This document shows positions 8,774-29,627 of a DNA stretch of 64,000 bases, one piece after another. The stretch covers positions 1 to 64,000 of the forward strand of contig NZ_JAHKPK010000005.1 of NCBI RefSeq assembly GCF_018860665.1, read 5' to 3'. This DNA is from Pacificibacter marinus (GTDB taxonomy: Bacteria; Pseudomonadota; Alphaproteobacteria; Rhodobacterales; Rhodobacteraceae). A program made the position numbers and the translations under genes. How positions within the stretch are numbered: the stretch's first letter is position 1; every line of letters starts with the position of its first letter. The notes beneath the pieces are model-generated. The model saw nothing but the letters and a program-made list of their open reading frames with translations. It made no database searches and was not told the DNA's origin.

Positions 8774-8775
8774 CT

Positions 8776-9836: not shown

Positions 9837-9872
9837 TGTGTTTCACTTTTCTATTTGGCTTAGGTTTCGAGA

Positions 9873-12512: not shown

Positions 12513-12549
12513 GATATTATTGGCCGAGGCACAGGCCCCGGCCCTTTGC

Positions 12550-13440
12550 TTATTTGGTAAAAGCGGTTGTCATCTCAGCCAAGGTGGTGCTGAGCGAGGT
12601 GTAGCCACCACCCGCGATATAAAGTGGGGCCGCAGAGAGATAGACGATCTGGTCGTTTTGTGCTGCGGTTGTTCCAGCCACCAATGGGTTGTCCAAGGTT
12701 GTGTGTGCCGATGACGCCTCGCCAATGGCAACGCTGCGATCAACCACGATCAACCAGTCGGGGTTCACTTCGGCTATGAATTCAAAGGACACAGCATCGC
12801 CATGCACTTCGGGGTTCAGGTTTTCAAATGCCTCGGGGACATCAAGGGCTGTGTGAACCCAGCCGAACCGCGACCCGCGACCATAAGCCGAAACTTTTGG
12901 GCCGTTGGTCATAAGGATCAACGCATTACCTTTACCGGCAGTGGCCGCTTTTGCCTCTGCAAGTTGCGCATCCATCGCGGCTAACAGCTCCGCAGCCTTA
13001 TCTTGTTTCTCAAACAGCACACCGTAGGTGGTGATGTTTGCTTTTGCATCCGCGACGGTATCTTCGCCGATGGTCATATCAATCGTGGGAGCGATTTTTG
13101 ACAAAGCCTGAACCTTTGCCGCAGACCGACCGCCCGCAATGATCAAATCCGGGCCGAGGTTTGCCAGAGCTTCCATGTTCGGCTCAAATAATGTGCCAAC
13201 CGGTTCGGCAGTCAAATCACCGAGGTAATCAACATAAAGTTTATCAGGAATGCCAACCAAAGGAACATCGAGCGCGGTCAGCGTATCAATTGCCGCAATA
13301 TCAAGGGCCACGACATGAGCAGGGCTAGGGGCCGTTGTCACCTCACCCTGAGCGGTGTGAATTTGGATATCTTGCGCCATAACGGCAGGTGTAGCGAACA
13401 GCGACATGCCAATAAACGCGGCACAGAAAGTGCGTATCAT
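12550..13440 (-). CDS. Iron-siderophore periplasmic substrate-binding protein
   Basis: This 296-residue class III binding protein delivers the siderophore to the FecCD permeases. It has a signal peptide (residues 1-22, ending AVMAQ), then VVALDIAAIDTLTALDVPLVGIP and LANLGPDLIIAGGRSA, the standard CeuE/FatB/YclQ layout with a single backbone helix joining two lobes. I prefer ATG 13440, which has GGAGAGAG directly upstream; an ATG four codons earlier (13452) is inside that site. It is the first gene of the operon running to tonB, and its promoter must lie in the 119-base gap shared with the divergent DUF2218 gene. Confidence 0.92.
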   Translation of the reverse strand: MIRTFCAAFIGMSLFATPAVMAQDIQIHTAQGEVTTAPSPAHVVALDIAAIDTLTALDVPLVGIPDKLYVDYLGDLTAEPVGTLFEPNMEALANLGPDLIIAGGRSAAKVQALSKIAPTIDMTIGEDTVADAKANITTYGVLFEKQDKAAELLAAMDAQLAEAKAATAGKGNALILMTNGPKVSAYGRGSRFGWVHTALDVPEAFENLNPEVHGDAVSFEFIAEVNPDWLIVVDRSVAIGEASSAHTTLDNPLVAGTTAAQNDQIVYLSAAPLYIAGGGYTSLSTTLAEMTTAFTK

Positions 13441-13559
13441 ATCTCTCTCCATTAATGAACGCGTGGCTGAAAGTCTGGCTTCGCTTTATTTTCGAGGAAA
13501 TAACGGCTTGCGTTCCGAAGGTAAAGATATAAACGTACTAAAAAAGTCAGGAATTTGAA

Positions 13560-13960: not shown

Positions 13961-14479
13961 TCACAGGCTTGGTAAGTTGTGCGCGATTAACGCGTCCAAG
14001 TTTAGAGGTTTGTAATCGGTCTGTTCAACGCTCACGCAAATATGCCGCTCTGTTGGTGCCAGTTTCGTGTGTAAGTGACCATGAATGTTCATGGCAAATC
14101 GTTCGCCAAGACCACTGCGCGCGCACAGGCTGATTGGCAAATGCGTCAACACTGTCTTTGCGGCCCCCAGAACTTTCCATATAGAAATAGACTGGAACAC
14201 TTGCGTCAATTCGCGGTCAAGAGGGTTGTCGTGATTGCCAAGGATCAAATGTTTTTGCCCTTTCAACCGCCCCAACATTTTCCAGCCGTCCCCTCCATAG
14301 ACATCTCCCAAGTGAAAAACCGTGTCATCTAAGGCAATGAGATCATTCCAGTTGTCTGCAAGACATTCATTCATTTCGCGCACAGTCCCAAATCCGCGTG
14401 ACGTTTTTCCTTGCGCCAAGCCCGTGTCAATAAAGCTGCTGTCCCCGAAATGCGTGTCGGAGATAATCCATGTCGTCAT
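13961..14479 (-). CDS. Calcineurin-like metallophosphoesterase
   Basis: The 172-residue protein has the full dinuclear metallophosphoesterase signature: SDTHFGD (residues 7-13), HLGDVYG (about 56-62), LGNHDNP (about 79-85), the lone His of LTHLP (about 113), and the closing GHLHTKL (about 134-140). Proteins of this size hydrolyse phosphomono- or diesters in the cytoplasm; the natural substrate is usually unknown. It sits alone on the minus strand between the DUF2218 and LysR genes and is not clearly cotranscribed. It may be relevant that other phosphatases are encoded nearby at 24307-26377, but no link is shown by the sequence. Confidence 0.88.
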   Translation of the reverse strand: MTTWIISDTHFGDSSFIDTGLAQGKTSRGFGTVREMNECLADNWNDLIALDDTVFHLGDVYGGDGWKMLGRLKGQKHLILGNHDNPLDRELTQVFQSISIWKVLGAAKTVLTHLPISLCARSGLGERFAMNIHGHLHTKLAPTERHICVSVEQTDYKPLNLDALIAHNLPSL

Positions 14480-14595
14480 ATTCTAGTCCTTATGCGCAGA
14501 TGTAGTGCTTGGAGAGAAAAGAGAGGCGCGGCATGCAAAGCCATCCTGCGCTATCGGCATCTAGGCAGTCCCTGCGCCGCTGTCGCGCCTCGCCC

Positions 14596-15507
14596 CTATG
14601 CATCGCCGATTTGTTTCGCGCCGCTGCGTATTTTCTTGGCCAAATACTTGGCAAGTTTCGCTGCAGCAGGGGACAATGTGCGCCCGTGCAGTTTTACCAG
14701 TCGAATATTTGCCGGTTTCATTTTTGTGATTTTAAGCAAAACCGCTTTTGCGGCGTCATCTTCGCTTTGCTCGTATAGTGAAAGGCCAAAAGTGATGAGC
14801 CCGCCGCTGCGGCAAGCGCTGGCGATAGAGGCATAAGTGTTGCTTTCGACAGCAGGGGACAGGAAAGCATTTTCGCGATTGGCCTGTTGATCCAGCATAA
14901 GTCGCAAGCCTGATCCCTGCGGGGGCAATACGATTTGATGTTTGGCTATTTCTGAAATGGACACCTCGCCTGCCGCCGCCAGCGGATGGTGGGCGGAAAC
15001 CACAGCAAAGATCTCTTGCTCTGCCATACTCAGCACTGACAAATCCGAATGATCGGGCAGATTCAAGCACAGGCCAATATCGGAATGAAATTCTTGCAAA
15101 TCCGCCAGTGCGCGTATTGAGGATGAATGGTTCAGCGCGACAGTCACCTTTGGGTTTTTCTGCTGGAACTTCGCCAAATGCACCGGCAGAAAACTTTCTA
15201 AAACGGATTGGCTGGCACAAATTCGCACATGACCGCTGGTGGCTTTTTTGATTGCCTGCAATTCGCCGCGCACCTTTTCCAGCTCTGCCAATTGCGCGCG
15301 GGCGTGGATCGCAAGGTATTGCCCCGACGGATTGAGGCGGAGCCCCTTGGAGGTGCGTTCAAACAAATCCACGCCGAAATGCGCCTCAAGCGCCAGAATT
15401 TTACGACTGAGCGCAGAGGGGGTCATAGACATGTGTTCCGCAGCTTTGCGGATCGAACGGAACTGCACGATAGCGTCGAGAATTTTCAGATCATTGAAGT
15501 TTTGCAT
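14596..15507 (-). CDS. LysR family transcriptional regulator
   Basis: This 303-residue protein has an N-terminal winged helix-turn-helix (residues 1-60, with FRSIRKAAEHMSMTPSALSR and LEAHFGVDLFERTSKGLRL) and a C-terminal periplasmic-binding-like effector domain (about 90-295). It starts 16 bases after the ATPase gene of the FbpABC-type importer and on the same strand, so it is likely the last gene of that operon and may control it. LysR regulators are usually divergent from their targets; this tail position is less common. Effector unknown. Confidence 0.9.
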   Translation of the reverse strand: MQNFNDLKILDAIVQFRSIRKAAEHMSMTPSALSRKILALEAHFGVDLFERTSKGLRLNPSGQYLAIHARAQLAELEKVRGELQAIKKATSGHVRICASQSVLESFLPVHLAKFQQKNPKVTVALNHSSSIRALADLQEFHSDIGLCLNLPDHSDLSVLSMAEQEIFAVVSAHHPLAAAGEVSISEIAKHQIVLPPQGSGLRLMLDQQANRENAFLSPAVESNTYASIASACRSGGLITFGLSLYEQSEDDAAKAVLLKITKMKPANIRLVKLHGRTLSPAAAKLAKYLAKKIRSGAKQIGDA

Positions 15508-15523
15508 AGGAAAATCGCCGTCG

Positions 15524-16528
15524 TTATGCCCGCAACGGAAAGACGTGTTCCGGCAGAATATTTAAACGCACATCCCCCATCTCCTGAGGTCTGGTTTCAG
15601 AAAAGAAAGTCAGGCTTTGCCCCTTAATTTCCACTTTGATTTCGAAGCGCCCGTCGATGAACACCATGTCTTGAACTTTCGCGGCGTGCTCAGCTTGCCC
15701 CTGTACGATTTGAACCGCGTTGCGCGGGACCAAAAGCCAGTCCGATCTGTCATCGGTGTTGGCATGATAGGAATCTGAAGTGAAGAAATCGCGCGGCACG
15801 ATATTGCCCGCATTGACAAACTTTGCCGTCTCTACTGTGGTGGGGCGCGTGAAGATGTCCAAGGGTGTGCCCACTTGTTGGATTTGCCCCCCCGACATCA
15901 CGGCAATTCGGTCTGACAGGATTTGTGCTTCACGCCGATCGTGAGTCACATTGATACAAGTCAGCCCGAACTGCTTGGCGAGCTTACGAATTTCGTGCCC
16001 CAGATCGTCACGCAAATTGGAATCAAGGCTGGCCAGAGGCTCATCAAGCAAGATCACCTTGGGAGAGAGCGCGAGTGCACGCGCTATTCCCACCCTTTGG
16101 CGTTGTCCGCCAGAAAGTTGGCGCGGATATTTACCCGCATGAGCAGACATCTGCACCTGTCCCAAAACCTCTTTAACGCGTTTTGCCATATCGTTCTTGT
16201 TCCACCCGTAGCTGCGCAACGGAAAGGCAATATTTTCGTCAATCGTAAGGTGGGGCCAAAGCGCATGATCTTGAAAGACGAAACCGAATTGACGCGCTTG
16301 CGTAGGGACAAAAGTGCCGTGCGCGGGGTTGTCCAACACGTTGCCATTATAAGACAGCTGCCCGCTTCCCGCGCGGTCCAACCCTGAAATGATCCGCAGT
16401 AAGGTTGATTTTCCGCAGCCCGATTGCCCCAAAAGCGTAACGAATTCTCCCTCTTCAATGTCGAGGTTGATCCCCTTCAAAATCTCGGTATTCTCAAAGC
16501 TTTTATGCAGGTTATGTATATTAATCAT
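15524..16528 (-). CDS. ABC transporter ATP-binding protein, FbpC/PotA-like (importer 1)
   Basis: The 334-residue ATPase drives importer 1. It has Walker A GQSGCGKST, Q-loop VFQDHALWPH, signature LSGGQRQR, Walker B VILLDEPLASLD and H-loop VTHDRREA, then a C-terminal beta-rich regulatory (TOBE-like) domain from about residue 240. It starts three bases after the permease stop and is followed by the LysR gene. The family includes ferric iron, putrescine, sulfate, phosphonate and hexose-phosphate importers, so the ATPase alone does not define the cargo. Confidence 0.92.
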   Translation of the reverse strand: MINIHNLHKSFENTEILKGINLDIEEGEFVTLLGQSGCGKSTLLRIISGLDRAGSGQLSYNGNVLDNPAHGTFVPTQARQFGFVFQDHALWPHLTIDENIAFPLRSYGWNKNDMAKRVKEVLGQVQMSAHAGKYPRQLSGGQRQRVGIARALALSPKVILLDEPLASLDSNLRDDLGHEIRKLAKQFGLTCINVTHDRREAQILSDRIAVMSGGQIQQVGTPLDIFTRPTTVETAKFVNAGNIVPRDFFTSDSYHANTDDRSDWLLVPRNAVQIVQGQAEHAAKVQDMVFIDGRFEIKVEIKGQSLTFFSETRPQEMGDVRLNILPEHVFPLRA

Positions 16529-16531
16529 GGA

Positions 16532-18226
16532 TCAGTGGCCTTTCTCGGGGCGCAGGCTGTTGAGATAATTTGCCAACGCGATGAAGCCACCAGAGATCAA
16601 AACAGACACAAGGCTCATGGCCATTGCGGTGTTGACCGAACCTTGGTCGAATTGGTGGAACACAAAGGTTGAAACGGTTTCAAAACCGGGAGGCGTGAGC
16701 AATAGCGATGTCACCAATTCGCGTGAAGCAATGGAAAATACGATAAATCCAGAGGCCACGGACACACCAAGCAAAGCTGGACCGTTGACGCGTAAAATTA
16801 CCCCCAGATCGCTGGCCCCGTAGACCACAGCCGCGTCCTGCATCGACATGGGCAATTGTCGCAATGTGCTTGTGATCATACGCACCGGATATGGCAACAT
16901 GATGCAGGTATAGGCCAATAACATCACCCACCATGTATTATATGGTGTCCATGGCCAAAACGATTGGTTCCAGACAAGAATGAGCCCCACGGCGAGCGTC
17001 ATAGCCGGAAGCGCATTGGGCAGGGTCAACAGAAAATCTAAGGGATCAGAGAGGACCGAACGCCAACGCACGATAAAAAACGCGGCCAGTATGCCGATCG
17101 TCACAGTGATCAGCGCCGTGACTGTGGCCAAATGCAGACTTGTTGCGATGGCACTGAGAGCATCTTCATGCGTGGTGAACAGGGCTATAAAGGCATTAAA
17201 ATTCAGATTGGACCAGACCAATCCGCCCGACATCCGTTGCATCATCGCACTTAACAGGATGGACAAAAGCGGCAATGCCACAGCGACAAAAGCAAGGCCG
17301 CCAAGCGCGATATGGCTTATCGTGGTGCCGACAGTGCCCAGTTGCGATTTGCGCCCTTGGCTTTGCACCTCATCCACACTTGTGGTGACTTGTTTCGTCA
17401 AGCGCAAATGTAAATTGTAAGCGCCAAGTGCTATCACGATCAGTATCAAAGACAGGACAGAAGCCCCCGGCAAATCTATCGGCCAATCGCTTAGTTTTTC
17501 ATGGATGTAGGTCACGACAAAATCGATATCGGCCCGCCGCCCCAGAATTTCAGCTGTGCCAAATTCCTCGACAGTCATGATGAACACAAGCAAATTGCTG
17601 GACACGATCGCTGTGCCTACCAGCGGCAAAACAATGCGAAACAGGCGTCGAACGGATGTCGCGCCAAACACGCGTGCGACTTCGTCATATCGCTGTCCGA
17701 CGATCTGCAAGGCGCTAGAGGTGGTAAAATAAACGACTGGAAACAAGTTCAACGCCATCACGATAACGATTCCGAAAAAGCTATAAAGTATCGAGCTCAA
17801 GTTGAAGCCCAACAGCTGTTCGATAAAACCGTTGCGTTGTCCCAATTGAATCCATGCGAAAGCGCCAGTGAAGGGCGGGACCAAAAAAGGCACGAGAAAC
17901 AGCACATCCCAGATCGCGCCACGTCGCCCAAGTTTGATCCGCACAAGCGCGGCCGAGACGGCCATGACAGTTGAGAGCGCACAAACAGACAGGGCCAGCG
18001 TTACCGAGTTGAACACAGCCTGTAATAATCTGGGATCATTAAGATGCGGCCCTAGATTACTGAAGGGGGCGATGAATGACAGTTCGTTGAGTTTGGGGAA
18101 AATTGCAAAAAGAATGACGGCCAAGATGGGCAGCGCAACCACAACAAAAGCAAAGCCCATGGTTGCGAGGAAAAGGGAGGCGCGTAGCGCGCCTCCCGAA
18201 GGTTTATGTGCCGAAATGGGCATCAT
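16532..18226 (-). CDS. ABC transporter permease, fused double-domain FbpB type (importer 1)
   Basis: The product (about 564 residues) contains two consecutive BPD-type permease domains of about six helices each, as in FbpB. EAA-like loops are visible as YDEVARVFGATSVRRLFRIVLPL (first half) and MQDAAVVYGASDLGVILRVNGPAL (second half). I place the start at ATG 18226, five bases downstream of the binding-protein stop; the frame is open further upstream but would overlap that gene by 62 bases. The ATPase gene follows after three bases. Confidence 0.9.
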   Translation of the reverse strand: MMPISAHKPSGGALRASLFLATMGFAFVVVALPILAVILFAIFPKLNELSFIAPFSNLGPHLNDPRLLQAVFNSVTLALSVCALSTVMAVSAALVRIKLGRRGAIWDVLFLVPFLVPPFTGAFAWIQLGQRNGFIEQLLGFNLSSILYSFFGIVIVMALNLFPVVYFTTSSALQIVGQRYDEVARVFGATSVRRLFRIVLPLVGTAIVSSNLLVFIMTVEEFGTAEILGRRADIDFVVTYIHEKLSDWPIDLPGASVLSLILIVIALGAYNLHLRLTKQVTTSVDEVQSQGRKSQLGTVGTTISHIALGGLAFVAVALPLLSILLSAMMQRMSGGLVWSNLNFNAFIALFTTHEDALSAIATSLHLATVTALITVTIGILAAFFIVRWRSVLSDPLDFLLTLPNALPAMTLAVGLILVWNQSFWPWTPYNTWWVMLLAYTCIMLPYPVRMITSTLRQLPMSMQDAAVVYGASDLGVILRVNGPALLGVSVASGFIVFSIASRELVTSLLLTPPGFETVSTFVFHQFDQGSVNTAMAMSLVSVLISGGFIALANYLNSLRPEKGH

Positions 18227-18230
18227 CAAC

Positions 18231-19184
18231 TTACTCAGTCGCCGCTGCGAACGCATCGATGGTGGCTTCGGCTTCTGCTGCGGCCTTAACATAGTCGAAA
18301 TCGATCAATGCCAGCTCGTCCCAACCTGGACGTTTTGCTTTGACGTCTGTGCGGGCTGGAAGGATCATGCGATCAGCAACCAGTGCCTGACCTTCTTCGG
18401 AGAGAACGAAATCCATAAATTGTTTCGCCTCATTGGCTTGGTCGGTGGAGGCTGGGATCATGATTGGACGTGGGGCCAAAACCGTGCCGCTTTCAGGGTA
18501 GACAACCTCGATCGCTTCGCCTGCGGCTTTTTGGCCAATCGCGATGTAGTCAACCGCGCCAAATACAACGCCGCGCGCACCAGACAGAACAGGATTCAAA
18601 GCGGCAGCATTCGCACCTGGCACAATCATGCCATTGGCTTTTAGGTCAGAGATCAGTTGCCACGCCGCATCGCCATCTTGGCTGGCCAGGCCTTGTACCA
18701 AAGAAAGCGCCGCGCCTGAGGCTGCTGGATCTGGCATGGTCACCATATCTTTATAAGCTTCATTGGTCAGGTCGGACCACTCAGCGGGCGCTGGCATGTC
18801 CAAAGTGGTGTTGTACACCATCGCAATGGCGGCCGCACCTTGGGCCACATAGTCTTCGGTTTTGAGCGAATCTGGCACAGTCTTGGCATTTTCCGAGGCG
18901 TAGGGCAGCAATTCACCAGCCGCGCTCAGCGTGATGGCATGGCCCCACGAAGCAGAGATAAGAACGTCCGCTTGTGGGTTGGATTTTTCCGCCTCATAGC
19001 GAGCCATGACTTTGCCAGAAGTCGATTGAAACAGGTTTACCGTGATGCCGGTCTTGGCGGTAAAGGCCTCTGCGAGGGCGGCAGACAGAGGTTTCGGGCC
19101 TGCACTGTAAACGGTCAAGTCGTCTGCTGTGACGGCGGTTGCAGCCATTATAGCGATGAAGGATGTCGCGAGCGTACGGATCAT
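18231..19184 (-). CDS. Periplasmic substrate-binding protein of importer 1 (FbpA-like fold)
   Basis: The 317-residue protein has a signal peptide (residues 1-20) followed by DDLTVYSAGPKPLSAALAEAF, the start of a class II (COG1840-type) binding protein. Ferric-ion-binding FbpA proteins normally use two adjacent tyrosines in the second lobe; the corresponding stretch here reads GVVFGAVDYIAIGQ and has no Tyr pair. That argues against free ferric iron and for an organic or phosphorylated ligand. It is the first gene of the importer 1 operon; a 485-base gap separates it from the upstream DeoR gene on the same strand. Confidence 0.9.
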   Translation of the reverse strand: MIRTLATSFIAIMAATAVTADDLTVYSAGPKPLSAALAEAFTAKTGITVNLFQSTSGKVMARYEAEKSNPQADVLISASWGHAITLSAAGELLPYASENAKTVPDSLKTEDYVAQGAAAIAMVYNTTLDMPAPAEWSDLTNEAYKDMVTMPDPAASGAALSLVQGLASQDGDAAWQLISDLKANGMIVPGANAAALNPVLSGARGVVFGAVDYIAIGQKAAGEAIEVVYPESGTVLAPRPIMIPASTDQANEAKQFMDFVLSEEGQALVADRMILPARTDVKAKRPGWDELALIDFDYVKAAAEAEATIDAFAAATE

Positions 19185-19669: not shown

Positions 19670-20434
19670 CTATGCCAGAATGATTTGACAGGCATTCTGC
19701 GCGCAGTGTTGCAGGGTTTCTTCTGCAAGCTTTGCCGTCGTCACCACGATGTCATAACTCCACAAGTGACCGTGTTGACAGGCTAGGTCCAAGTCGGCTT
19801 TTCCTGCGTCGGCCACCAAAATTGTTGTCTTGGCGCAACTGGAAATTGCCTTGCGTGCCGAGATTTCATCAGAATTGTAATCCATAACGGCACCAGATGG
19901 CGATAGGCCGCCGCAACTGAAAACAGCATAATCCATGCGGTATTTTGCATAGAATTCCAGCGCAGCAACGCCTATCAGGTCCAAATCCCGCATTCGGACA
20001 GCACCACCGGCCATTTCAACTGTCACCCCTGATGCGTTTTGCAGCGCACAAACAGCATGGATGTTATTGGACGCGACAAATAAATTTTGGTGGGAGGCTA
20101 AGAATCTTGCACAAAATTCAACTGTGGTGCCAGTGCCCAATGCCACGCGGGCGCCGTTAGGGATCAGGTTTTTGACGGCCAATGCGATCCGTTGTTTTTC
20201 CTGCCGCGAGAGCCGAGCGCGAGGTAGGTAACCAATATTTTCGCTTTGCTGGCGTAACCGCACCGTGCCATTGCGCCGCTGCACCAATGCAGCATCATCC
20301 AAGCTGCGCAAATCCGCACGTATGGTTTGAACCGATACTGCAAGGCGTTTGGACAAATCCATGGCGGAAAGCGGTCCATCTTTGGATAAAAGCGCAAGAA
20401 TGCGATCACTTCGCTCACTTAGGTCCATCCGCAT
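19670..20434 (-). CDS. DeoR family transcriptional regulator
   Basis: This 254-residue repressor has an N-terminal DeoR winged helix (residues 5-60, with LSAMDLSKRLAVSVQTIRADLR) and a C-terminal DeoR sensor domain (75-230) carrying VALGTGTTVEFCARFL, SNNIHAVCAL and the NSDEISARKA-like phosphate-sugar pocket region. Members of the family with this domain usually respond to phosphorylated sugars. It is divergent from the binding-protein/hydrolase operon, and two TTTCG/CGAAA palindromes lie in the shared region at 20443-20452 and 20568-20583. It is also upstream of importer 1 on the same strand, so it may affect both importers. Confidence 0.92.
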   Translation of the reverse strand: MRMDLSERSDRILALLSKDGPLSAMDLSKRLAVSVQTIRADLRSLDDAALVQRRNGTVRLRQQSENIGYLPRARLSRQEKQRIALAVKNLIPNGARVALGTGTTVEFCARFLASHQNLFVASNNIHAVCALQNASGVTVEMAGGAVRMRDLDLIGVAALEFYAKYRMDYAVFSCGGLSPSGAVMDYNSDEISARKAISSCAKTTILVADAGKADLDLACQHGHLWSYDIVVTTAKLAEETLQHCAQNACQIILA

Positions 20435-20442
20435 GGTGATTT

Positions 20443-20452
20443 CTTTCGAAAG
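20443..20452. promoter_or_regulatory. Candidate DeoR operator 1
   Basis: CTTTCGAAAG is a perfect 10-base palindrome 8 bases upstream of the deoR-family gene start. TTTCG/CGAAA half-sites are typical of DeoR-family operators, and a second related palindrome lies before the divergent operon. Its position would allow autoregulation. Confidence 0.5.
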
Positions 20453-20567
20453 TAATAAGGGTCAAAGTCGACGTTAAGCCCTGTTCAGAATTTTCGCAAT
20501 AGGCTGAAAAAACACTGTCTTTGTCATAAAATGGTTGCAGAAAATGGGAATAAGCTCAAGTCAGGCA

Positions 20568-20583
20568 GCTTTCGAACGAAAGC
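20568..20583. promoter_or_regulatory. Candidate DeoR operator 2
   Basis: GCTTTCG-AA-CGAAAGC is a perfect inverted repeat with 7-base arms, ending about 20 bases before the ATG of the binding-protein gene and just 5' of its ribosome site. It shares the CTTTCG/CGAAAG core with the site at 20443. A repressor bound here would block transcription of the importer-hydrolase operon. Confidence 0.55.
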
Positions 20584-20603
20584 ATCAATTTCAGGAGAGC
20601 CCA

Positions 20604-21572
20604 ATGAAAACCTTCCTCACCTCGACCGCATTCGCGCTCATCGCAAGCACGTCTTTTGCAGACACAATCACACTTTACACCTCGCAGCCCAACGCTGATG
20701 CGCAGCAAACCGTGGATGCCTTTATGGCAGCCAATCCAGGTACAGACGTTGAATGGGTCCGCGATGGCACGACCCAACTGATGGCTCGTTTGCGTGCAGA
20801 AATCGAGGCAGGCAATCCCCAGCCCGATGTTCTGTTGATTGCCGACACGGTGACATTGGAAGGCATGGCGCAAGAAAATCTTTTGACGGCTTATAAATCG
20901 CCTGAGGCAACCAACTATGACAGCGCGCTTTATTCTGGCGAGGGGTTCTATCACTCAACGAAACTGATCACGACAGGTATCGTTTACAATACGGGTGTTG
21001 AGGGCATTCCAACCTCTTGGACAGATTTGAGTGATGCGGCTCTTAAGGGTCAAATCGCCATGCCATCCCCACTTTACTCTGGCGCAGCTTTGATCCATTT
21101 GGCCACGCTGACGGGGGACGAGACCCTCGGCTGGGATTACTACGAAGCATTGGCCGCGAATGAAACCCGCGCGCAAGGCGGCAATGGCGGTACATTCAAA
21201 GCTGTTGCGTCCGGTGAAAAGCCTTACGGCATGGTTGTCGATTTCCTCGCCATTCGTAACAAAGCGGATGGATCACCGATTGAATTCGTCTTCCCGACCG
21301 AGGGCGTGTCTTATGTGACCGAACCTGTGGCGATCATGTCATCTGCAAAAAACATCGATGGTGCACAGAAATTCGTGGATTTCTTGCTCAGTGAAGAAGG
21401 ACAGGAATTGGTGCTGGATATGGGATATATCCCTGCACGTGATGGCATGGGTGTGCCTGCAGGTTTCCCCGCACGTGCAGACATCAAGCTGATGGATTTT
21501 GACCCTGCTGTTGCGCTTGAAAACGCTGAGGCAAACAAAGCTAAATTTGCTGAGCTTTTCGGCGCTGAATGA
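20604..21572 (+). CDS. Periplasmic substrate-binding protein of importer 2 (FbpA/AfuA-like)
   Basis: The 322-residue protein is the ligand-binding subunit of importer 2. A signal peptide (residues 1-19, ending TSFAD) precedes ITLYTSQPNADAQQTVDAF and the GNPQPDVLLIADTVTLEGM motif. The region that would carry the FbpA tyrosine pair reads YGMVVDFLAIRNKADGSP, without a Tyr dyad, so ferric ion is unlikely. Within the same superfamily, AfuA binds hexose phosphates, which would suit the phosphatases encoded downstream. AGGAG before ATG 20604 decides the start over an ATG-led extension from 20535. The gene overlaps the permease by four bases. Confidence 0.9.
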   Translation: MKTFLTSTAFALIASTSFADTITLYTSQPNADAQQTVDAFMAANPGTDVEWVRDGTTQLMARLRAEIEAGNPQPDVLLIADTVTLEGMAQENLLTAYKSPEATNYDSALYSGEGFYHSTKLITTGIVYNTGVEGIPTSWTDLSDAALKGQIAMPSPLYSGAALIHLATLTGDETLGWDYYEALAANETRAQGGNGGTFKAVASGEKPYGMVVDFLAIRNKADGSPIEFVFPTEGVSYVTEPVAIMSSAKNIDGAQKFVDFLLSEEGQELVLDMGYIPARDGMGVPAGFPARADIKLMDFDPAVALENAEANKAKFAELFGAE

Positions 21573-23275
21573 TGAATCCTACCATGCAAAAAGAAGGCAG
21601 CCGGTCTGAGGGTCGGCTGCTCTGTGCGATTTTAATCGTCTCGATCTGTCTGACGCTTGCCCCCGTTGCACGTTTGTTTGTCGAAGGGGTGACCGACCAA
21701 GGCACCTTCGGGTTTACATTGGCGGGCAAAGTGCTGGCGCAACCGTCAACGATGAGCGCGCTCAAACATTCACTGATCACCGCAAGTCTGGGTACGATCG
21801 TGTCTTTGGTATTGGGGGCCGCTTTTGCATTCCTTGTCGCACTGACCAACTTGCGGGCAAAGGCCGCCTTGGTGTTTTGCCTGATGATCCCGATGATGAT
21901 CCCTCCGCAGATTACAGCGCTGTCATGGACACAGATTATGGGACCATCGTCGGTATTGCTCAAAACTCTTGGACTCGCCCCACCCCTTGGATCACCGCAA
22001 CCGCTTTACTCTGTTGAAGGAATTATCCTGCTGTTGGGTATTCAGCATATGTCGATCATTTTCCTCACTTTGCGCGCAGGACTACGCGCCATCCCGCAAG
22101 AAACTGTTGAAGCGGCACGGATCAGTGGGGCGCGCGGTTTGCGGACTTGGTGGCAGGTGATTTTGCCTCTGACTCTGCCAAGCCTTGCGGCAGGCACAGC
22201 GATCACTTTTGTCACGGCTCTTGGCAACTTTGGCATCCCCGCGATGCTTGGTATTCCCGCAGGATATGTGACACTGCCGACGCTGGTTTATCAAAAGCTG
22301 GCAGGACTTGGCACCAGCGTTCTGGCTGAGGTATCTGTTCTGGCGATGCTGATCGGTGCTGTCGCCGTTATTGGTATTCTCGCGCAGCGTTTTTTTCAAA
22401 CACGGCAAAGGATCTATCTTGTCGGTTCCACGTCGCGCCCGCTGGCCATCCCGTTGGGGGCTGCACGCTTGCCTGTGGAAATCTTGCTATGGGCTATCGT
22501 GGGAATCATACTTGTACTGCCAATGTTTGGGTTGCTGGCGACATCTTTGGTGCCCGCTTATGGTGTGCCTTTGCGGTTTGACACGGTCACATTGGCCTCT
22601 TGGGTCGAGGTTCTGTTGCGCCAGCCCGTCACAGCGCGGGCTTTTGTAAACTCATTCGGTTTGGCCTTTGGTGCGGCACTTGTGCTGATGATTTTATGTC
22701 TGCCGCTGGCATGGCTGATGGAACGTTCGCCCACGCGGCTGTCTCGCATCTTCGATAGCCTGCTTGACCTACCCTATGCGCTGCCCGGTGTTGTTTTGTC
22801 GATTGCGATGATCCTTTTACTGATCAATTTACCCTTCACCGAAGCCACGCTTTATGGAACGATCTGGATCATTTTCTTCGCTTATCTTGCCCGCTTCTTT
22901 GCCGTCATGTTCCGCCCCCTACAAGCCAGCTTGAAACAGCTTGATCCCGCGATGGGGGAAGCCGCGCAATCGGTTGGGGCCACGCTGTTTCAACGCCTAC
23001 GCGATGTGATCATACCGCTTTCGGCCCCAGCGGCAGCCGCAGGGGCGATCCTTGTTTTTCTGACAGCGTTCAATGAATTAACCGTATCTGCGTTGCTCTG
23101 GTCGTCAGGCACCGAAACATTAGGCGTGGTGATTTTCAATCTCGATGACAGCGGCGAAACCGCAATGGCCAGCGCTTTGGCTATGACCATTGTGATGGTC
23201 GTCATGCTTTTGATGGTTTTGGTTCAACTTTTATCGCGCCGTTTTCCAAAAGGAGTCGTTCCATGGCAGACATAA
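21569..23275 (+). CDS. ABC transporter permease, fused double-domain FbpB type (importer 2)
   Basis: The 568-residue protein has two permease domains of about six helices each. The EAA loops read ETVEAARISGARGLRTWWQVILP near residue 180 and DPAMGEAAQSVGATLFQRLRDVIIP near 470, where the ATPase docks. ATGATG at the start overlaps the binding-protein stop, so translation is coupled. The end overlaps the ATPase gene by 13 bases. It is organised like the importer 1 permease, which suggests the two systems are related but carry different cargo. Confidence 0.92.
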   Translation: MMNPTMQKEGSRSEGRLLCAILIVSICLTLAPVARLFVEGVTDQGTFGFTLAGKVLAQPSTMSALKHSLITASLGTIVSLVLGAAFAFLVALTNLRAKAALVFCLMIPMMIPPQITALSWTQIMGPSSVLLKTLGLAPPLGSPQPLYSVEGIILLLGIQHMSIIFLTLRAGLRAIPQETVEAARISGARGLRTWWQVILPLTLPSLAAGTAITFVTALGNFGIPAMLGIPAGYVTLPTLVYQKLAGLGTSVLAEVSVLAMLIGAVAVIGILAQRFFQTRQRIYLVGSTSRPLAIPLGAARLPVEILLWAIVGIILVLPMFGLLATSLVPAYGVPLRFDTVTLASWVEVLLRQPVTARAFVNSFGLAFGAALVLMILCLPLAWLMERSPTRLSRIFDSLLDLPYALPGVVLSIAMILLLINLPFTEATLYGTIWIIFFAYLARFFAVMFRPLQASLKQLDPAMGEAAQSVGATLFQRLRDVIIPLSAPAAAAGAILVFLTAFNELTVSALLWSSGTETLGVVIFNLDDSGETAMASALAMTIVMVVMLLMVLVQLLSRRFPKGVVPWQT

Positions 23276-24306
23276 CCCTGACCTCAGTCGGTAAAACATT
23301 TTCGGGAACACCCGCCGTGCAAGACATTAGCACCCGTTTTGAGGACGGTGAATTTATTGCGCTTCTAGGTCCATCGGGCTGCGGTAAGACCACACTTTTG
23401 CGGCTGCTGGCGGGGTTTGAGGTGCCCAGCCAAGGCACAATTCGCATCGGTGATCGTGACATTGCAAACGGCGATACCGGTAAGATGATACCGCCTGAAA
23501 ACCGCAATATGGGCTTTGTATTTCAGTCTTATGCGCTTTGGCCTCATATGACCGTGCGCCGCAATGTGTCCTATCCTTTGGAAATCCGCGGATTTTCCAA
23601 AGCCGAAATCGCAAGCCAAACAGATGCCGCCCTCACCGCAACCGGTCTTGGCACATATGCCGAGCGGATGCCATCGGAGCTGTCAGGCGGGCAAAGACAA
23701 CGGGTCGCACTGGCGCGTTGTCTCGTGTCCGATCCTGATGCTGTGCTACTAGATGAGCCTTTGGCAAACCTAGACGTTGCCCTGCGCGCCTCTATGCAGA
23801 CTGTGTTTACTGATTTTCATAAACGTACGTGCGCGACGATGGTCTATGTCACTCATGATCAAGCCGAAGCCATGGCCATGGCCGACCGCATCGCCGTCAT
23901 GGACAATGGTCGTATTCAACAATTTGACACGCCGCAAAATCTGTATGAACGCCCTAAGAACCGTTTTGTTGCCGAATTTGTCGGGTTGGGCACCGTTGTG
24001 CCTATGCGTGGGGTCGAGAAAAACGAGACAAGCGCCCACGGTCATGTTTTGGGGCGACGCATTGCAATAAACAGCACGCATGAGTGCCCCAGTCATGTCT
24101 GCCTACGCCCCGAGAACCTGACAATTTCGGAAACGGGTGATCTGCGGGCCAAGGTGGCGCGTGTGACCTATCTGGGCGGGAAATATCTGCTGGAAACCGT
24201 GTCTGAGTGTGGCACGCGGCTATTGGCCGAAACGCGGGCCAAATTTGAGGTGGGCGTACAACTGGGCCTGACCATCACCACCCCTTGGGCATTTTACGAG
24301 GATTAA
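23263..24306 (+). CDS. ABC transporter ATP-binding protein, FbpC-like (importer 2)
   Basis: This 347-residue ATPase has Walker A GPSGCGKTT, Q-loop VFQSYALWPH, signature LSGGQRQR, Walker B AVLLDEPLANLD and H-loop VTHDQAEA, followed by a TOBE-like C-terminal domain (about 270-347). AAAGGAG precedes ATG 23263 inside the end of the permease gene. It abuts the metallo-beta-lactamase-fold gene with no spacer (stop TAA directly followed by ATG), which ties the hydrolases to the transporter in one transcript. Confidence 0.93.
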   Translation: MADITLTSVGKTFSGTPAVQDISTRFEDGEFIALLGPSGCGKTTLLRLLAGFEVPSQGTIRIGDRDIANGDTGKMIPPENRNMGFVFQSYALWPHMTVRRNVSYPLEIRGFSKAEIASQTDAALTATGLGTYAERMPSELSGGQRQRVALARCLVSDPDAVLLDEPLANLDVALRASMQTVFTDFHKRTCATMVYVTHDQAEAMAMADRIAVMDNGRIQQFDTPQNLYERPKNRFVAEFVGLGTVVPMRGVEKNETSAHGHVLGRRIAINSTHECPSHVCLRPENLTISETGDLRAKVARVTYLGGKYLLETVSECGTRLLAETRAKFEVGVQLGLTITTPWAFYED

Positions 24307-25374
24307 ATGCAAAGTGTAAGAATTCTCTCAGGTATCGGCGACAAAGGCCCTGCTTGTATGCAACTCAATACAGGCAATCAGCGTTGGTTGCTTGATTGCG
24401 GGTTTGGTCCCGAGGCCCATGCCCAATTTAACCCTGCGTGGCTTGATGGAGTGGATGCAGTATTCATTACACATGATCACATCGACCACATCGGTGGGGC
24501 GTCTCACGTGGTTGAGGCAGGCCTGCCAATCTATGCCACAGCTCAAACGGCCAAGGCTTTGCCGCCTGCCGCTGTTGTGCGTTTATTGCCAGAGCAAGGC
24601 AAAACCGTGATTGATGGCATATCTTTAACCACAGGGCGCAACGGCCATGCGATGGGCGGTGTATGGATGCATTTTGCGATGGGCGACGGGCTGTTTTATT
24701 CAGGCGATTGGTCAGAGGAATCTGATTGGTTTCCTTTTGATCTGCCCCCGCTGGCCGCAACCGCTATTTTGGATTGTTCCTATCACCTTGATGATGTGCC
24801 CCAAGCCGACCGCTTTGCAGCACTTGATACATTGCTGGATGGGCTAGACGGACAAGTGCTTCTGCCGGTGCCCCCTTCGGGTCGAGCAGGTGAAATGGCG
24901 CTTCATCTGATCCGCCGTTACGGAGTGCAAAGCGTGATGTTAGACCCTGAATGTATGACAACCCTGCGCGCAGCTTTATCGAGTGGAACACTTAACCAGC
25001 ATGTTCAAGAAATCGCCCCCTTGTTGGACCGCAGTCCAATGGAGCAAGCGCGTTTTTTGATCTGTGATACCCCCAATGCCGACGGTGGTGCCGCTTGGGG
25101 TTATGTACGGGCTTGGCATGAAAGCGGGCGCTTGGGGCAAGATGCGCATGTTGTATTTACCGGTCATATGACAGCCCATGCCCGTGGCATTTGCAGCGTC
25201 CCTGGCGGGTATTTTCAACGCTGGAACGTGCATCCCCCCTTGCGTGATCAAATCAAAATGCTGGAACGATTACGCGCAAAACGCTTTGCCCCCGCCTTTT
25301 GCACGCAACCAGAAGATTACCTCATTGAAGATTTAGGAGTAGAGGTTTTCATGCATGATCTCATCCGCTTATGA
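24307..25374 (+). CDS. Metallo-beta-lactamase-fold hydrolase, possibly a beta-CASP-like phosphodiesterase
   Basis: The 355-residue protein has the metal motif THDHIDHIGG (residues 55-64; HxHxDH), a later His in GHAMGG (about 113) and Asp in YSGDWSEESD (about 137). After these the chain continues for 200 residues with VVFTGHMTAHARG, then WNVHPPLRDQIKMLERL and FAPAFCTQPEDY, an order reminiscent of the inserted and closing motifs of beta-CASP nucleases or of PhnP-like phosphodiesterases. That comparison is by eye. It is cytoplasmic (no signal peptide), translationally linked to the ATPase before it and the phosphatase after it. The simplest role is to cleave the imported compound, probably a phosphodiester. 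Confidence 0.8.
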   Translation: MQSVRILSGIGDKGPACMQLNTGNQRWLLDCGFGPEAHAQFNPAWLDGVDAVFITHDHIDHIGGASHVVEAGLPIYATAQTAKALPPAAVVRLLPEQGKTVIDGISLTTGRNGHAMGGVWMHFAMGDGLFYSGDWSEESDWFPFDLPPLAATAILDCSYHLDDVPQADRFAALDTLLDGLDGQVLLPVPPSGRAGEMALHLIRRYGVQSVMLDPECMTTLRAALSSGTLNQHVQEIAPLLDRSPMEQARFLICDTPNADGGAAWGYVRAWHESGRLGQDAHVVFTGHMTAHARGICSVPGGYFQRWNVHPPLRDQIKMLERLRAKRFAPAFCTQPEDYLIEDLGVEVFMHDLIRL

Positions 25375-25916
25375 CCTTGTGGCCTCTCCCCACGAAAAGC
25401 TTTTGCCTGATCCGGCATGGCGAAACGACAGCCAATGCGGATAATATCATCGCAGGCATTACCGATGTGCATTTAAGCCCCCTTGGCCGCAATCAAGCAC
25501 GGGCCTTGGCCTGCCGAAGATGGCCCGATCCAATCGCATTGTTTTCTAGTCCGCTGTCGCGCGCACAAGACACTTGCAAACTGGCATTTCAGGGGCAGGA
25601 TTTCGTTCTGCACGACGACCTGCGGGAACGCGATTGGGGTAAATTTGAAGGCCGCCCCTTAGCTGAGCTTCCCAATCGTGATGACACCCCTGATGGGGGC
25701 GAAAGCTGGCCTGCAATGTTGGCGCGTGTGCATCAGGCCATATCCGAGATATGCGCAACATCTGGTACAGCCCTGCCGGTGGTTGTTTGTCATTCTGGCA
25801 TCATCCGCGCCGCACGTGTGCTTTGGACCACTGGCAACGTAGGTCAGCGCCCACCAAATGCCGTGCCACTTTTGTTTGATAAATTGCCCCATACAATTCA
25901 GGAGAAGACAATATGA
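25371..25916 (+). CDS. Histidine phosphatase family protein
   Basis: The 181-residue protein has the phosphatase RHG signature LIRHGETTAN near residues 14-23, the second Arg in SSPLSRAQDT, the acid in LRERDWGKFEG and the second catalytic His in VVVCHSGIIRAAR near 143. The proton-donor Glu region (DGGESW) is present. It overlaps the previous and next genes by four bases each (ATGA), so it is made together with them. Members remove phosphate from small phosphorylated metabolites; the exact substrate is unknown. No signal peptide, so it acts in the cytoplasm after import. Confidence 0.9.
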   Translation: MTLWPLPTKSFCLIRHGETTANADNIIAGITDVHLSPLGRNQARALACRRWPDPIALFSSPLSRAQDTCKLAFQGQDFVLHDDLRERDWGKFEGRPLAELPNRDDTPDGGESWPAMLARVHQAISEICATSGTALPVVVCHSGIIRAARVLWTTGNVGQRPPNAVPLLFDKLPHTIQEKTI

Positions 25917-26377
25917 TTCAAACGGACTTAAAACCCTGCGTTGTCTTTGATGTCGATGGAACCCTCGCAGAATTTGATGCCAAAACACTGGGTCATCTTG
26001 TGCATGGGGTGGAAAAGCACTGGGATGAGTTTCACACCGCCATGGCCGATGCGCCCTTGATTGCCCCAGTCGCCAAATTGATGCAGCGCCTCAAAGACAG
26101 TGGCGAAACCATCGTCATTTGCTCTGGGCGTCCACAAGGCTGGGCCGATCATACGATTGCATGGTTGCGTAAACACAACCTTCCTTTTGACGGGATTTAC
26201 CTCAGAGACGCGGACCAGGACGATGCCAGCGACCCCGAAGTGAAACGCCATGCCTTGGCTCAGATGAAGGCAGATGGACTGAGACCTTGGATCGTCATTG
26301 ATGATCGCAGCTCAGTCGTTGCGGCTTGGCGCGCCGAAGGGATCATCTGTCTGCAATGTGCTCCAGGCGACTTTTGA
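25913..26377 (+). CDS. HAD-superfamily phosphatase, PNKP-like
   Basis: The 154-residue protein has HAD motif I FDVDGTLAEFD (residues 13-23), motif II ICSGRPQGW (about 63-71) and motif IV VIDDRSSVV (about 128-136). The segment LPFDGIYLRDADQDDASDPEVK resembles the 3'-phosphatase domain of T4-type polynucleotide kinases, where the chain turns from the SGR motif to a D..VK element. This hints at a nucleotide- or sugar-3'-phosphate substrate, but similarity is judged by eye. It is the last gene of the operon and overlaps the histidine phosphatase by four bases. Confidence 0.85.
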   Translation: MIQTDLKPCVVFDVDGTLAEFDAKTLGHLVHGVEKHWDEFHTAMADAPLIAPVAKLMQRLKDSGETIVICSGRPQGWADHTIAWLRKHNLPFDGIYLRDADQDDASDPEVKRHALAQMKADGLRPWIVIDDRSSVVAAWRAEGIICLQCAPGDF

Positions 26378-27503: not shown

Positions 27504-29627
27504 ATGAGTGTTACACTAACCGCAAACGACAGCCTGTATGCATACAATGGCGAACTCGCTGACCTTTATACTGGCCTGCTGAATGCGACTGTTTTACCTG
27601 CTATTGAGACTCCGGTTTCCGGTGTCTTTACGGATGACGATGGCACGCTTGACACAAGCGGCACCAGCACAGTGTCGATCGACGGCGGCACTGACCAAAC
27701 CATGACATATCTTGGGTCAGGAACTGCTGGATTGCTCGGCGGAGGACTGGGCGGCGTCATCGGTGGTATTCTTGTTGGTACAACCCCCGTTATGGCTTTC
27801 TCAGTAGAAACCGGCACGGGCACTCAAATCTATCTGTATGCCCCCGAAGGCTTTCCCGCTTTAACCGCGATTAGCATGTCTTTGGATATCGATGCATCCG
27901 AAACGTTTGATCTCGCGCCAAGCACCCCTGGTGTTGTGGACGGGACATCTGGCGATGACGTTATGAATGTCGGGTATGAAGATGCCGATGGCGATGAGAT
28001 TACTGACTATGACCCCGGTTGGTTAGGGATCGGTTATCAGTCTGGCGATGACGTCGTCTATGGCTACTCAGGCAATGACACAATCAATGCTGGCAGCGGT
28101 GATGATGAAATCCACGGCGGTACTGGGGACGATATCCTCAATGGTGGCGATGGAGACGATACGATCTATGGGGATGAGGGGAACGACACCATTTCCGGCG
28201 GGGCTGGTGCCGACACCATCTATGGTGGCGAAGGCAATGACACGATCGAAGGTGGTGAAGGCAACGATACGGTCTACGGCGGTGACGGCAACGACACTTG
28301 GCTCGCAGGGACTACAGACAGCGGCAATGACAAGGTCTACCTTGAAGGAGGCGACGACACTGCGGAGGTTGGCTTTCTTTACGAAGCCTCGCCCGTAACT
28401 GAAGTCTTAGATGGCGGCGACGGCGAAGATACTGTCGCGTTTGATTCTGCATTGGTTGATGAATACGATATCGGAATTACCCTGAATGACACGGGCGTGG
28501 CCACAAATATTGGTTTTAATACTGAAGTTTCCAACTTCGAAAACGTGCGCGGCAACTCTGGTGAAAATGCCATCACGGGTAACAATGTTGACAACAAGCT
28601 CTGGGGCTTGGGTGGTGAAGATACTCTCAGTGGCGGCGGCGGCAACGATCTAATCGATGGTGGTGATGACGACGATACGCTGACAGGTGGCTCTGGTGAC
28701 GATACATTTGTTTGGTCAGGCGCGGATCGCGGCAATGACATTATCACCGATTTCGGTACCGATAGCGGTGGCCCTTATGACGATGATGACACAACAAATA
28801 ATGACTTTGTTGATCTAAGCGCCATTTTTAATGATAGCACCCTAGCAGATTACAACGCCGCAAACGGCACCGATTTTGCGCATGCGATTACCGCACTCAA
28901 CCATGATCTGGCTGATGGGGTTGTCAACTTTGACGGCACCGATATGTCTGGTCCGACGTTGACGATGACAGGGATCACCGGGGGGGTAACCGAAGATCAA
29001 ACGGCTGTGGTCTGTTTCGCTTCGGGGACTTTGATCAAGACATGCGAAGGCGAAATTGCCGTCGAAGACCTAAAAGTGGGTGATAAGGTTTTGACGCTTG
29101 ATGATGGGTATCAGCCAATCCGTTGGATCGGCATACGCAAATTGTCTGCTCAAGATCTTACCAAGAACCCAAAACTTCGCCCAATCCGTATCCGCGCTGG
29201 GGCTTTGGGCAATGATATGCCGACGCAAGATTTAACTGTTTCCCCACAACACCGCATTCTTGCCAATTCCAAGATTGCTGAGCGTATGTTCGGTGTGAAC
29301 GAGGTGTTGGTCGGTGCTAAACATTTGACGGAACTTGAGGGCGTCGAGGTCGCGGAAGACATGACTGAGGTGACTTATGTGCACTTCTTGTTTGAAGAAC
29401 ACCAAATCGTGTTTTCAAACGGGGCGCGGACCGAAAGCTTGTACACGGGTGCCGAAGCTCTCAAATCGATTTCCCCGAAAGCGCGTGAAGAAATTTATGC
29501 GATTTTCCCTGGCCTTCAGGCTGACCCAGACGCTGGCACCGACGCCGTGCGCCTTTTGGTGCCCGGACGACAGGCCCGTAAATTGGCAGAGCGTTCGGCA
29601 CGCAACGATAAGCGTATTTTCTCTTAA
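27504..29627 (+). CDS. RTX calcium-binding protein with C-terminal Hint domain
   Basis: This 707-residue acidic protein joins two modules. The middle carries RTX nonapeptides of the GGxGxDx type (about residues 186-262 and 358-404, with GGEGNDTIEGGEGNDTVYGG), which fold into a calcium-binding beta roll in secreted type I substrates. The C-terminal part (about 500-660) is a Hint (hedgehog/intein) domain beginning with the nucleophile Cys in VVCFASGTLIKT and ending with HQIVFSNGARTESLY. There is no Sec signal; secretion by type I export is the expectation, but no such exporter is encoded here. Hint domains can self-cleave, so processing is plausible. AAAGGA lies upstream of ATG 27504. Confidence 0.9.
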   Translation: MSVTLTANDSLYAYNGELADLYTGLLNATVLPAIETPVSGVFTDDDGTLDTSGTSTVSIDGGTDQTMTYLGSGTAGLLGGGLGGVIGGILVGTTPVMAFSVETGTGTQIYLYAPEGFPALTAISMSLDIDASETFDLAPSTPGVVDGTSGDDVMNVGYEDADGDEITDYDPGWLGIGYQSGDDVVYGYSGNDTINAGSGDDEIHGGTGDDILNGGDGDDTIYGDEGNDTISGGAGADTIYGGEGNDTIEGGEGNDTVYGGDGNDTWLAGTTDSGNDKVYLEGGDDTAEVGFLYEASPVTEVLDGGDGEDTVAFDSALVDEYDIGITLNDTGVATNIGFNTEVSNFENVRGNSGENAITGNNVDNKLWGLGGEDTLSGGGGNDLIDGGDDDDTLTGGSGDDTFVWSGADRGNDIITDFGTDSGGPYDDDDTTNNDFVDLSAIFNDSTLADYNAANGTDFAHAITALNHDLADGVVNFDGTDMSGPTLTMTGITGGVTEDQTAVVCFASGTLIKTCEGEIAVEDLKVGDKVLTLDDGYQPIRWIGIRKLSAQDLTKNPKLRPIRIRAGALGNDMPTQDLTVSPQHRILANSKIAERMFGVNEVLVGAKHLTELEGVEVAEDMTEVTYVHFLFEEHQIVFSNGARTESLYTGAEALKSISPKAREEIYAIFPGLQADPDAGTDAVRLLVPGRQARKLAERSARNDKRIFS
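28061..28290 (+). repeat. RTX nonapeptide-encoding repeat block
   Basis: About eight consecutive 27-base units encode GG-G-D-type nonapeptides inside the Hint protein. A shorter second block follows at about 28578-28715. They are imperfect at DNA level. Confidence 0.85.

Follow-up and report, generated by a model that had tools for sequence, protein, structure and literature searches.

What does an ABC importer carry when three hydrolases are encoded in the same operon? This question is raised by a locus at positions 19670-26377 of a 64,000-nucleotide stretch of the Pacificibacter marinus genome (contig NZ_JAHKPK010000005.1, positions 1 to 64,000; hereafter, the window). An initial annotation had described a chain of overlapping or abutting genes there with a divergent DeoR regulator, and the open reading frames (ORFs) and Pfam matches confirmed the chain, its gene families and its overlaps. 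All seven ORFs are present: the regulator gene and six packed plus-strand genes for a binding protein, a permease, an ATPase, a metallo-beta-lactamase (MBL)-fold hydrolase, a histidine phosphatase and a HAD phosphatase. We judge this to be a genuine, conserved organophosphate import-and-cleavage operon, similar in kind to Ugp/UgpQ but unexpected in its beta-CASP enzyme and its exchangeable phosphatases. Its sequences suggest that the operon, under DeoR control, serves to scavenge a small organophosphate, probably a phosphodiester of cyclic or linear form; we give this reading slightly better than an even chance.

In the ugpBAECQ glycerophosphodiester system, an ABC importer that takes up its phosphorus compound intact shares one operon with a cytoplasmic phosphodiesterase. 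The P. marinus locus likewise joins an ABC importer for a putatively intact compound to a predicted phosphodiesterase, but its binding protein belongs to another family, its phosphodiesterase would have a beta-CASP MBL fold, its predicted control is by DeoR, and phosphatases are added.

Conservation of the operon around its transporter

The transporter consists of a periplasmic binding protein (20604-21572, plus strand, 322 residues, with a signal peptide recognized by eye; PF13343, E = 6.7e-24, and SBP_bac_6/8/1), a double-length permease (21569-23275, plus strand, 568 residues; two BPD_transp_1 domains, and TIGR03262 with E = 3.4e-55) and an ABC ATPase (23263-24306, plus strand, 347 residues; ABC_tran and TOBE_2). 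The binding-protein gene most likely starts at the ATG at 20604, behind an AGGAG; a longer alternative with a TTG start at 20535 was given by the ORF program. Binding-protein and permease genes overlap by 4 bases and permease and ATPase genes by 13; the ATPase and MBL genes abut, and overlaps of 4 bases follow between the MBL and histidine phosphatase genes and between the latter and the HAD gene.

We searched the MBL protein against 292 genomes of the order at E <= 1e-15 and fetched wider stretches for the 41 matches besides the window. Among the 42 matches, 25 (window included) show at least 59% identity. Matches weaker than these 42 covered short segments, most of them in other, longer frames. 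Transporter genes adjoin 41 of the 42 MBL homologues. The sole unlinked homologue (L069, 6544-7560, in genome G247) is without the metal motif HxHxDH and may be a decaying or repurposed copy. At L053 (genome G248), the MBL gene adjoins the permease and ATPase genes, while the binding-protein gene lies on a different contig. A scan of named genomes, in which a P. marinus MBL protein was 96% identical to that of the window, yielded 30 loci, for example in Celeribacter, Sulfitobacter, Marinovum, Shimia, Roseovarius, Thalassovita, Cohaesibacter and Kiloniella.

The close relatives (L031-L054 and L071-L100) comprise 54 loci with 47 distinct MBL proteins. Counting genes at 45% identity or more, we found all seven in 41 of these 47. 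The six incomplete cases are four without the HAD gene, L053 without the binding-protein and HAD genes, and L079 without the DeoR and HAD genes, so that a DeoR gene is found in 46 of the 47. The permease match is split across two frames in L078 and L083. Gene spacings are for the most part exactly conserved or differ by a few bases at most. Gene order, and mostly even the overlap lengths, recur in tens of genomes, an arrangement far beyond chance. Conservation of the hydrolases with the transporter in other genomes, which the initial annotation had named as its own test, was thus borne out. Downstream of the operon, the genes vary in size, strand and spacing except among close relatives (51 of the 54 loci, compared by these three features; the other three end at a contig edge), and the unit is therefore taken to end at the HAD or histidine phosphatase gene. 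In Phaeobacter inhibens 2.10, all seven genes are located on a plasmid, and the binding-protein homologue of this strain is WP_014889304.1.

The binding protein gives a complementary view. Its homologues (E <= 1e-50) occur in 56 of the 292 genomes. At 69% identity or more there are 27 genomes, 25 of which have the MBL gene; the other two carry a fragment (G205) and the degenerate copy mentioned above (G247). At 42-53% identity, 16 of 17 genomes have it; the exception, G185, has its binding-protein gene close to the edge of a contig, at a distance of about 200 bases. At 55-61% identity, the MBL gene (E <= 1e-15) was found in none of 11 genomes. The remaining genome (G265) has one truncated match. 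The 11 sister loci (L143-L153) hold a binding-protein gene, a permease gene and, on the other strand, an ATPase gene, and none of the hydrolases of the operon was found in these neighbourhoods. Six sister binding proteins form one supported clade in an unrooted tree; as this tree has no outgroup, the MBL gene may equally have been lost from the clade or have been missing from the start. The MBL gene goes with the transporter, and a sister transporter exists without it.

Two further observations concern these loci. A long frame in L101 that appeared to fuse the MBL and binding proteins was rejected as a chance overlap; in L102, the MBL frame differs from the binding-protein frame. A version of the transporter with MBL and histidine phosphatase genes is also found immediately after an IS5-like transposase gene on an Enterobacter hormaechei plasmid (NZ_CP059418.1; L141, 4204-9607). 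The name of this plasmid, from a clinical Enterobacter, includes VIM, and four Enterobacter plasmid records match.

A beta-CASP enzyme with exchangeable phosphatases

The MBL enzyme (24307-25374, plus strand, 355 residues; Lactamase_B_2) was predicted to have an MBL fold with an inserted beta-CASP domain. Its model aligns with beta-CASP proteins over the full 355 residues, and among the 50 matches listed per program all are beta-CASP proteins. Residues D30, H56-H58-D60-H61, H114, D134 and D156, corresponding to metal motifs 1-4 and the acidic residue of motif A, are invariant in 17 homologues; D156 was placed on the motif A Glu in a profile alignment with six beta-CASP proteins. H309, also invariant, was put at motif B by eye against a beta-CASP sequence, the profile alignment being unreliable at the C-terminus. 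The enzyme thus resembles CPSF73, archaeal CPSF1, TTHA0252 and SNM1/Artemis in its whole fold, in motifs 1-4 and A and, as placed by eye, probably in motif B. Unlike these proteins, it is tied to a nutrient importer, has Asp in motif A, is 76 residues shorter than TTHA0252 (431 residues) and apparently lacks the motif C His in most members. The initial annotation had proposed that this enzyme cleaves a diester, and its phosphodiesterase-type fold agrees with this predicted activity; it is probably a phosphodiesterase of the cytoplasm, given that no signal peptide was seen by eye.

The histidine phosphatase (25371-25916, plus strand, 181 residues) belongs to branch 1 (PF00300 His_Phos_1, E = 3.6e-32), and its RHGE motif is kept in 48 of 54 orthologues. 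The HAD phosphatase (25913-26377, plus strand, 154 residues) matches nearly the whole PF25109 HAD_PNKP profile (positions 2-143 of 143; E = 4.5e-23; 82.4 bits against a cut-off of 27.6), has Pnkp1 (4xrp) and T4 polynucleotide kinase (1ltq) as relatives in the PDB, and shows the motifs DxDGT, SGR and DDR in 48 of 48 orthologues. It belongs to the PNKP 3'-phosphatase family, and 3'-phosphatase activity is predicted. It shares these motifs and the near-full profile match with the 3'-phosphatase domain of T4 Pnkp, but it is a stand-alone protein encoded in a transport operon. HAD homologues (E <= 1e-15) occur in 24 of the 292 genomes, and in 22 of these one sits within the operon. In three close relatives whose operon is without HAD (G225, G189 and G248), no HAD match was found elsewhere in the genome at the same threshold.

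More distant loci came from a class sample, with MBL matches in 20 of 385 genomes at E <= 1e-15 (8, including that of the window, at E <= 1e-80; the remaining 12 were partial matches, mostly to longer frames), and from a phylum sample, with matches in 17 of 398 genomes at E <= 1e-25. Five enzyme sets are seen around one type of transporter and MBL enzyme. The first, histidine phosphatase plus HAD with DeoR, is that of the window and is also found in L103, L110 and L113. The second, with the histidine phosphatase alone and the order ATPase-MBL-histidine phosphatase-binding protein-permease, is shared by 12 of the 13 loci in the far group L055-L067; in the remaining one, L063, no histidine phosphatase was detected and the gene order is different. 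The third has HAD alone with DeoR (L105 and L116-L118), and no histidine phosphatase was found in these four loci by BLAST at E <= 1e-4. In the fourth (L068 and L070 by Pfam, L107 and L115 by BLAST), SurE is accompanied by a sugar-binding regulator of the SorC type; 5'- and 3'-nucleotidase activity is described for the SurE family in an excerpt of one report (PMC8475336). The fifth has a small protein with weak matches to dual-specificity phosphatase (DSP; L104, L109 and L112). In L108, the MBL gene is fragmentary. The binding proteins cluster largely by phosphatase type in the unrooted tree, with L105 grouping with the type having both enzymes.

The initial annotation had the histidine phosphatase and the HAD enzyme remove phosphates in series. 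This part was not supported: HAD is missing in 6 of the 47 close relatives, the histidine phosphatase was not found in four far loci, and SurE or DSP-like proteins take their place, so that the phosphatases look like alternatives. The two enzymes of the window are more likely to be alternative than successive. Across the variants the MBL enzyme is constant and the phosphatase variable, as would be expected if the first cut were specific and the second generic.

The regulators adjoining the variants are mostly of sugar-sensing types (DeoR, SorC-type Sugar-bind and LacI, with one GntR-FCD). They fit a sugar or sugar-phosphate product, and nucleosides remain compatible. These regulators also favour uptake of a phosphomonoester, such as a sugar phosphate, as do the closest solved binding proteins, which take monoesters. 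The MBL enzyme would then hydrolyse something other than a diester, such as a lactone, in the manner of UlaG-type MBL enzymes. However, the full-length beta-CASP match and the invariance of the beta-CASP motif residues speak against such a role, and we consider monoester uptake unlikely, though a serious competitor.

Aldehyde/alcohol dehydrogenase, topoisomerase, MFS, DUF4432 and GATase genes neighbour the far variants in one or two loci.

Control and ligand of the importer

The divergent regulator (19670-20434, minus strand, 254 residues) has the DeoRC (PF00455, E = 1e-32) and HTH_DeoR (PF08220, E = 9.7e-9) domains of the DeoR/GlpR family, and its predicted own operator is recognizable by conservation. 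We compared 53 close promoters, that of the window and 52 others. A palindromic putative operator, CTTTCGAACGAAAG (20569-20582), reads TTTCGNNCGAAA in 53 of 53 promoters and CTTTCGNNCGAAAG in 45 of 53. An operator-like site nearer to the DeoR gene, TTTCTTTCGAAA (20440-20451), follows the pattern TTTC.TT.GAAA in 49 of 53. The 14-mer palindrome pattern has a single exact copy in the 3.89 Mb genome, before the binding-protein gene; one-mismatch sites number 18 elsewhere, about as many as for a reversed control pattern (17). Two or three CGAAAG half-sites are present in 7 of 7 far promoters with a divergent DeoR gene, and none or one in 18 other far promoters. Since the half-sites track DeoR, the palindrome most likely belongs to this regulator, and the DeoR control proposed earlier is evident as a predicted operator.

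The best NCBIfam relative of the regulator is the GlpR-type model NF008154 (138.6 bits, cut-off 331), and E. coli GlpR senses glycerol 3-phosphate. This might point to a special case of phosphodiester uptake, namely a replacement of Ugp for glycerophosphodiesters in which UgpQ is swapped for the beta-CASP enzyme and the phosphatases act on glycerol 3-phosphate; the operon logic equals that of ugpBAECQ. However, the GlpR score is far under its cut-off, the SurE and PNKP-type phosphatases are nucleotidase-like, and none of the seven genes is glp-type. We therefore regard glycerophosphodiesters as an improbable ligand.

We also looked upstream of the operon for a PHO box, an 11-base direct repeat of TGTCA half-sites. 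Along the alignment of 42 non-redundant promoters, the consensus has a single best-fitting position, a fit that 0.5% of permuted consensuses equal. In the window, this position is a degenerate PHO-box-like repeat region at 20521-20538 (plus strand), with the first half-site alone being good. Individual promoters give a mixed picture. Three far promoters, those of L055 and L056 (from related genomes) and L114, reach 12-13 of 14 matches, and none as good was found in 189-203 sequence windows elsewhere in these loci. Pho control is likely in part of the family only.

The binding protein itself constrains the ligand. In phmmer searches its closest solved sequences are 4r72 (AfuA, E = 6.7e-25), 8x1a and 6wce (P5PA, E = 3.8e-18), and the ligands of these nearest solved relatives are phosphorylated rings. 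In 29 binding proteins (that of the window and 28 others at 42-97% identity, covering all phosphatase types), R53, G55, T56, D81, K120, S155-P156-L157-Y158-S159-G160, N194 and others are invariant. Since the same residues are kept across all phosphatase types, the ligand is probably the same, and one ligand with changing phosphatases is the simplest reading. The six sister proteins keep the named residues with one exception, Y158, in whose place all six have Thr or Asn; the near-invariant positions 139 and 262 are also altered in most of them.

According to an excerpt of the AfuABC report (PMC4546632), AfuA holds the phosphate by S37 and T150 and the sugar by H205, D206 and E229. These residues align, in the phmmer alignment and with a numbering offset of two deduced from it, with T56, A161, F214, L215 and V238, respectively. 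The phosphate end of the AfuA site thus appears partly kept, through T56, and the sugar end not. This mapping argues against AfuA-type hexose phosphates, a ligand type that the initial annotation had mentioned. The sequence also argues, more weakly, against ferric iron. As judged from the same excerpt, the P. marinus system also differs from AfuABC in its double permease and its three hydrolases. P5PA, the pyridoxal-5-phosphate binding protein, shares the fold family, Thr at the position of T56 and Gly at that of G160, but its ligand-ring residues differ, and no hydrolases are mentioned for it in an excerpt of its report (PMC8427247).

The permease carries the database label 'iron ABC transporter permease', and the binding-protein sequence is related to iron-binding proteins. 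Uptake of ferric iron or polyamines, with unrelated hydrolases attached, would fit such labels. On the other hand, F214 aligns with a Tyr/Phe position that differs between the near-identical iron-binding entries 7f6q and 7f6t (the only iron tyrosine mapped), the invariant R53 and K120 suit an anion, and phosphoesterases are linked to the transporter. We hold this explanation to be the least probable of all. Scarcely more probable is a transporter for 2-aminoethylphosphonate or another phosphonate. PhnS2, PhnU2 and PhnT2 are the best or near-best NCBIfam relatives, and the AepXVW/PhnS2-U2-T2 system shares the transporter superfamily, but the scores of 134.6, 187.7 and 304.8 lie far under the curated cut-offs of 392.75, 593.25 and 457.7, respectively, so that none of the three proteins ranks as an equivalog. 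Moreover, an excerpt of the report on aepXVW describes these genes as typically co-located with phnWX or phnWAY (PMC8316502), whereas no phosphonate-degrading, C-P bond-cleaving gene is among the seven here.

Proposed route and its significance

In the route that we propose, the compound would be bound intact by the binding protein in the periplasm and carried into the cytoplasm by the ABC transporter, intact entry being suggested by the cytoplasmic appearance of the hydrolases. There, the beta-CASP enzyme would open the diester to a phosphomonoester, and a phosphomonoesterase (here the histidine phosphatase and/or HAD, in relatives SurE or a DSP-like protein) would free the phosphate, leaving a sugar, a polyol or a nucleoside-like remainder. 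We place the beta-CASP enzyme first because it is constant and the phosphatase second because it is replaceable. The inducer of DeoR would probably be the monoester or a related sugar phosphate. The earlier outline, import of a phosphorylated compound followed by diester cleavage, is thus supported in part, by the hydrolase linkage, the kinship to 4r72 and 6wce and the beta-CASP fold, but not in its serial dephosphorylation.

The SurE nucleotidase, the PNKP-like HAD and the nuclease-type first enzyme together make nucleotide diesters the boldest candidate. Small nucleotide phosphodiesters (2',3'- or 3',5'-cyclic, or short oligonucleotides) would be imported intact and degraded inside the cell: the beta-CASP enzyme, recruited from nucleic-acid processing, would open the diester, and enzymes of the 3'-phosphatase or nucleotidase type (PNKP-type HAD, SurE and others) would free the phosphate. 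We put this variant forward tentatively, as less likely than not.

Several observations weigh against phosphodiester scavenging. The sister clade without an MBL gene, in 11 of the 292 genomes, suggests that this type of transporter can work without the enzyme. The motif C histidine is seemingly absent in most MBL members (the apparent position is F331/C332, where the alignment is unreliable); excerpts of two reports assign His at motif C to the RNA type of beta-CASP proteins and Val to the DNA type (PMC7458816, PMC3095777). The binding-protein model is too poor to use (mean predicted local distance difference test score, 51.5). The DSP-like assignment scores are under the Pfam cut-offs, and a phosphatase set was assigned in 12 of the 18 stretches L101-L118 (not in L101, L102, L106, L108, L111 and L114). 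In the window, the PHO-like site is poor, and the best PHO match lies elsewhere and is unremarkable. In the rest of the 25 far promoters, 5 matches are marginal (p 0.025-0.06) and 17 unremarkable, including all four of the SurE type.

Other genes of the window deserve mention. A second ABC system of the same transporter superfamily lies back to back with the operon on the minus strand (13961-19184). It comprises a binding protein (18231-19184), a double permease (16532-18292) and an ATPase (15524-16528), and with these are encoded a regulator of the LysR type (14596-15507) and a small phosphoesterase resembling calcineurin (13961-14479). Its binding protein and permease have homologues next to the first system in L108 and next to the sister transporter in L149, and in L070 the SurE-type operon adjoins a related ABC system that includes a histidine phosphatase of its own. 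Farther away on the minus strand (7455-13452), iron/siderophore ABC genes of the FecCD type are accompanied by genes for TonB and ExbB-like proteins. On the other side, 27504-29627 encodes a large protein whose repeats are acidic and glycine-rich and in which a Hint-like segment was recognized by eye; a Hint-domain protein is encoded just 3' of the operon in P. inhibens 2.10 (L140, 11435-11746).

A literature search over open-licence papers (titles and the starts of abstracts) retrieved no description of this gene set, which only weakly suggests that there is none. A large share of the organic phosphorus dissolved in seawater is chemically uncharacterised, and importers of this family are given labels such as 'iron transporter'. 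The compact unit, plasmid-borne as well, occurs in genera such as Phaeobacter, in which its ligand can be sought directly. If the substrate of the beta-CASP enzyme is a small molecule taken up from outside, the enzyme would represent a metabolic branch of a group known for nucleic-acid processing, and the exchangeable phosphatases would clearly exemplify how non-homologous enzymes replace each other while the first step stays constant. Should the nucleotide proposal be true, the operon would constitute a bacterial ABC pathway dedicated to obtaining phosphorus from nucleotides.

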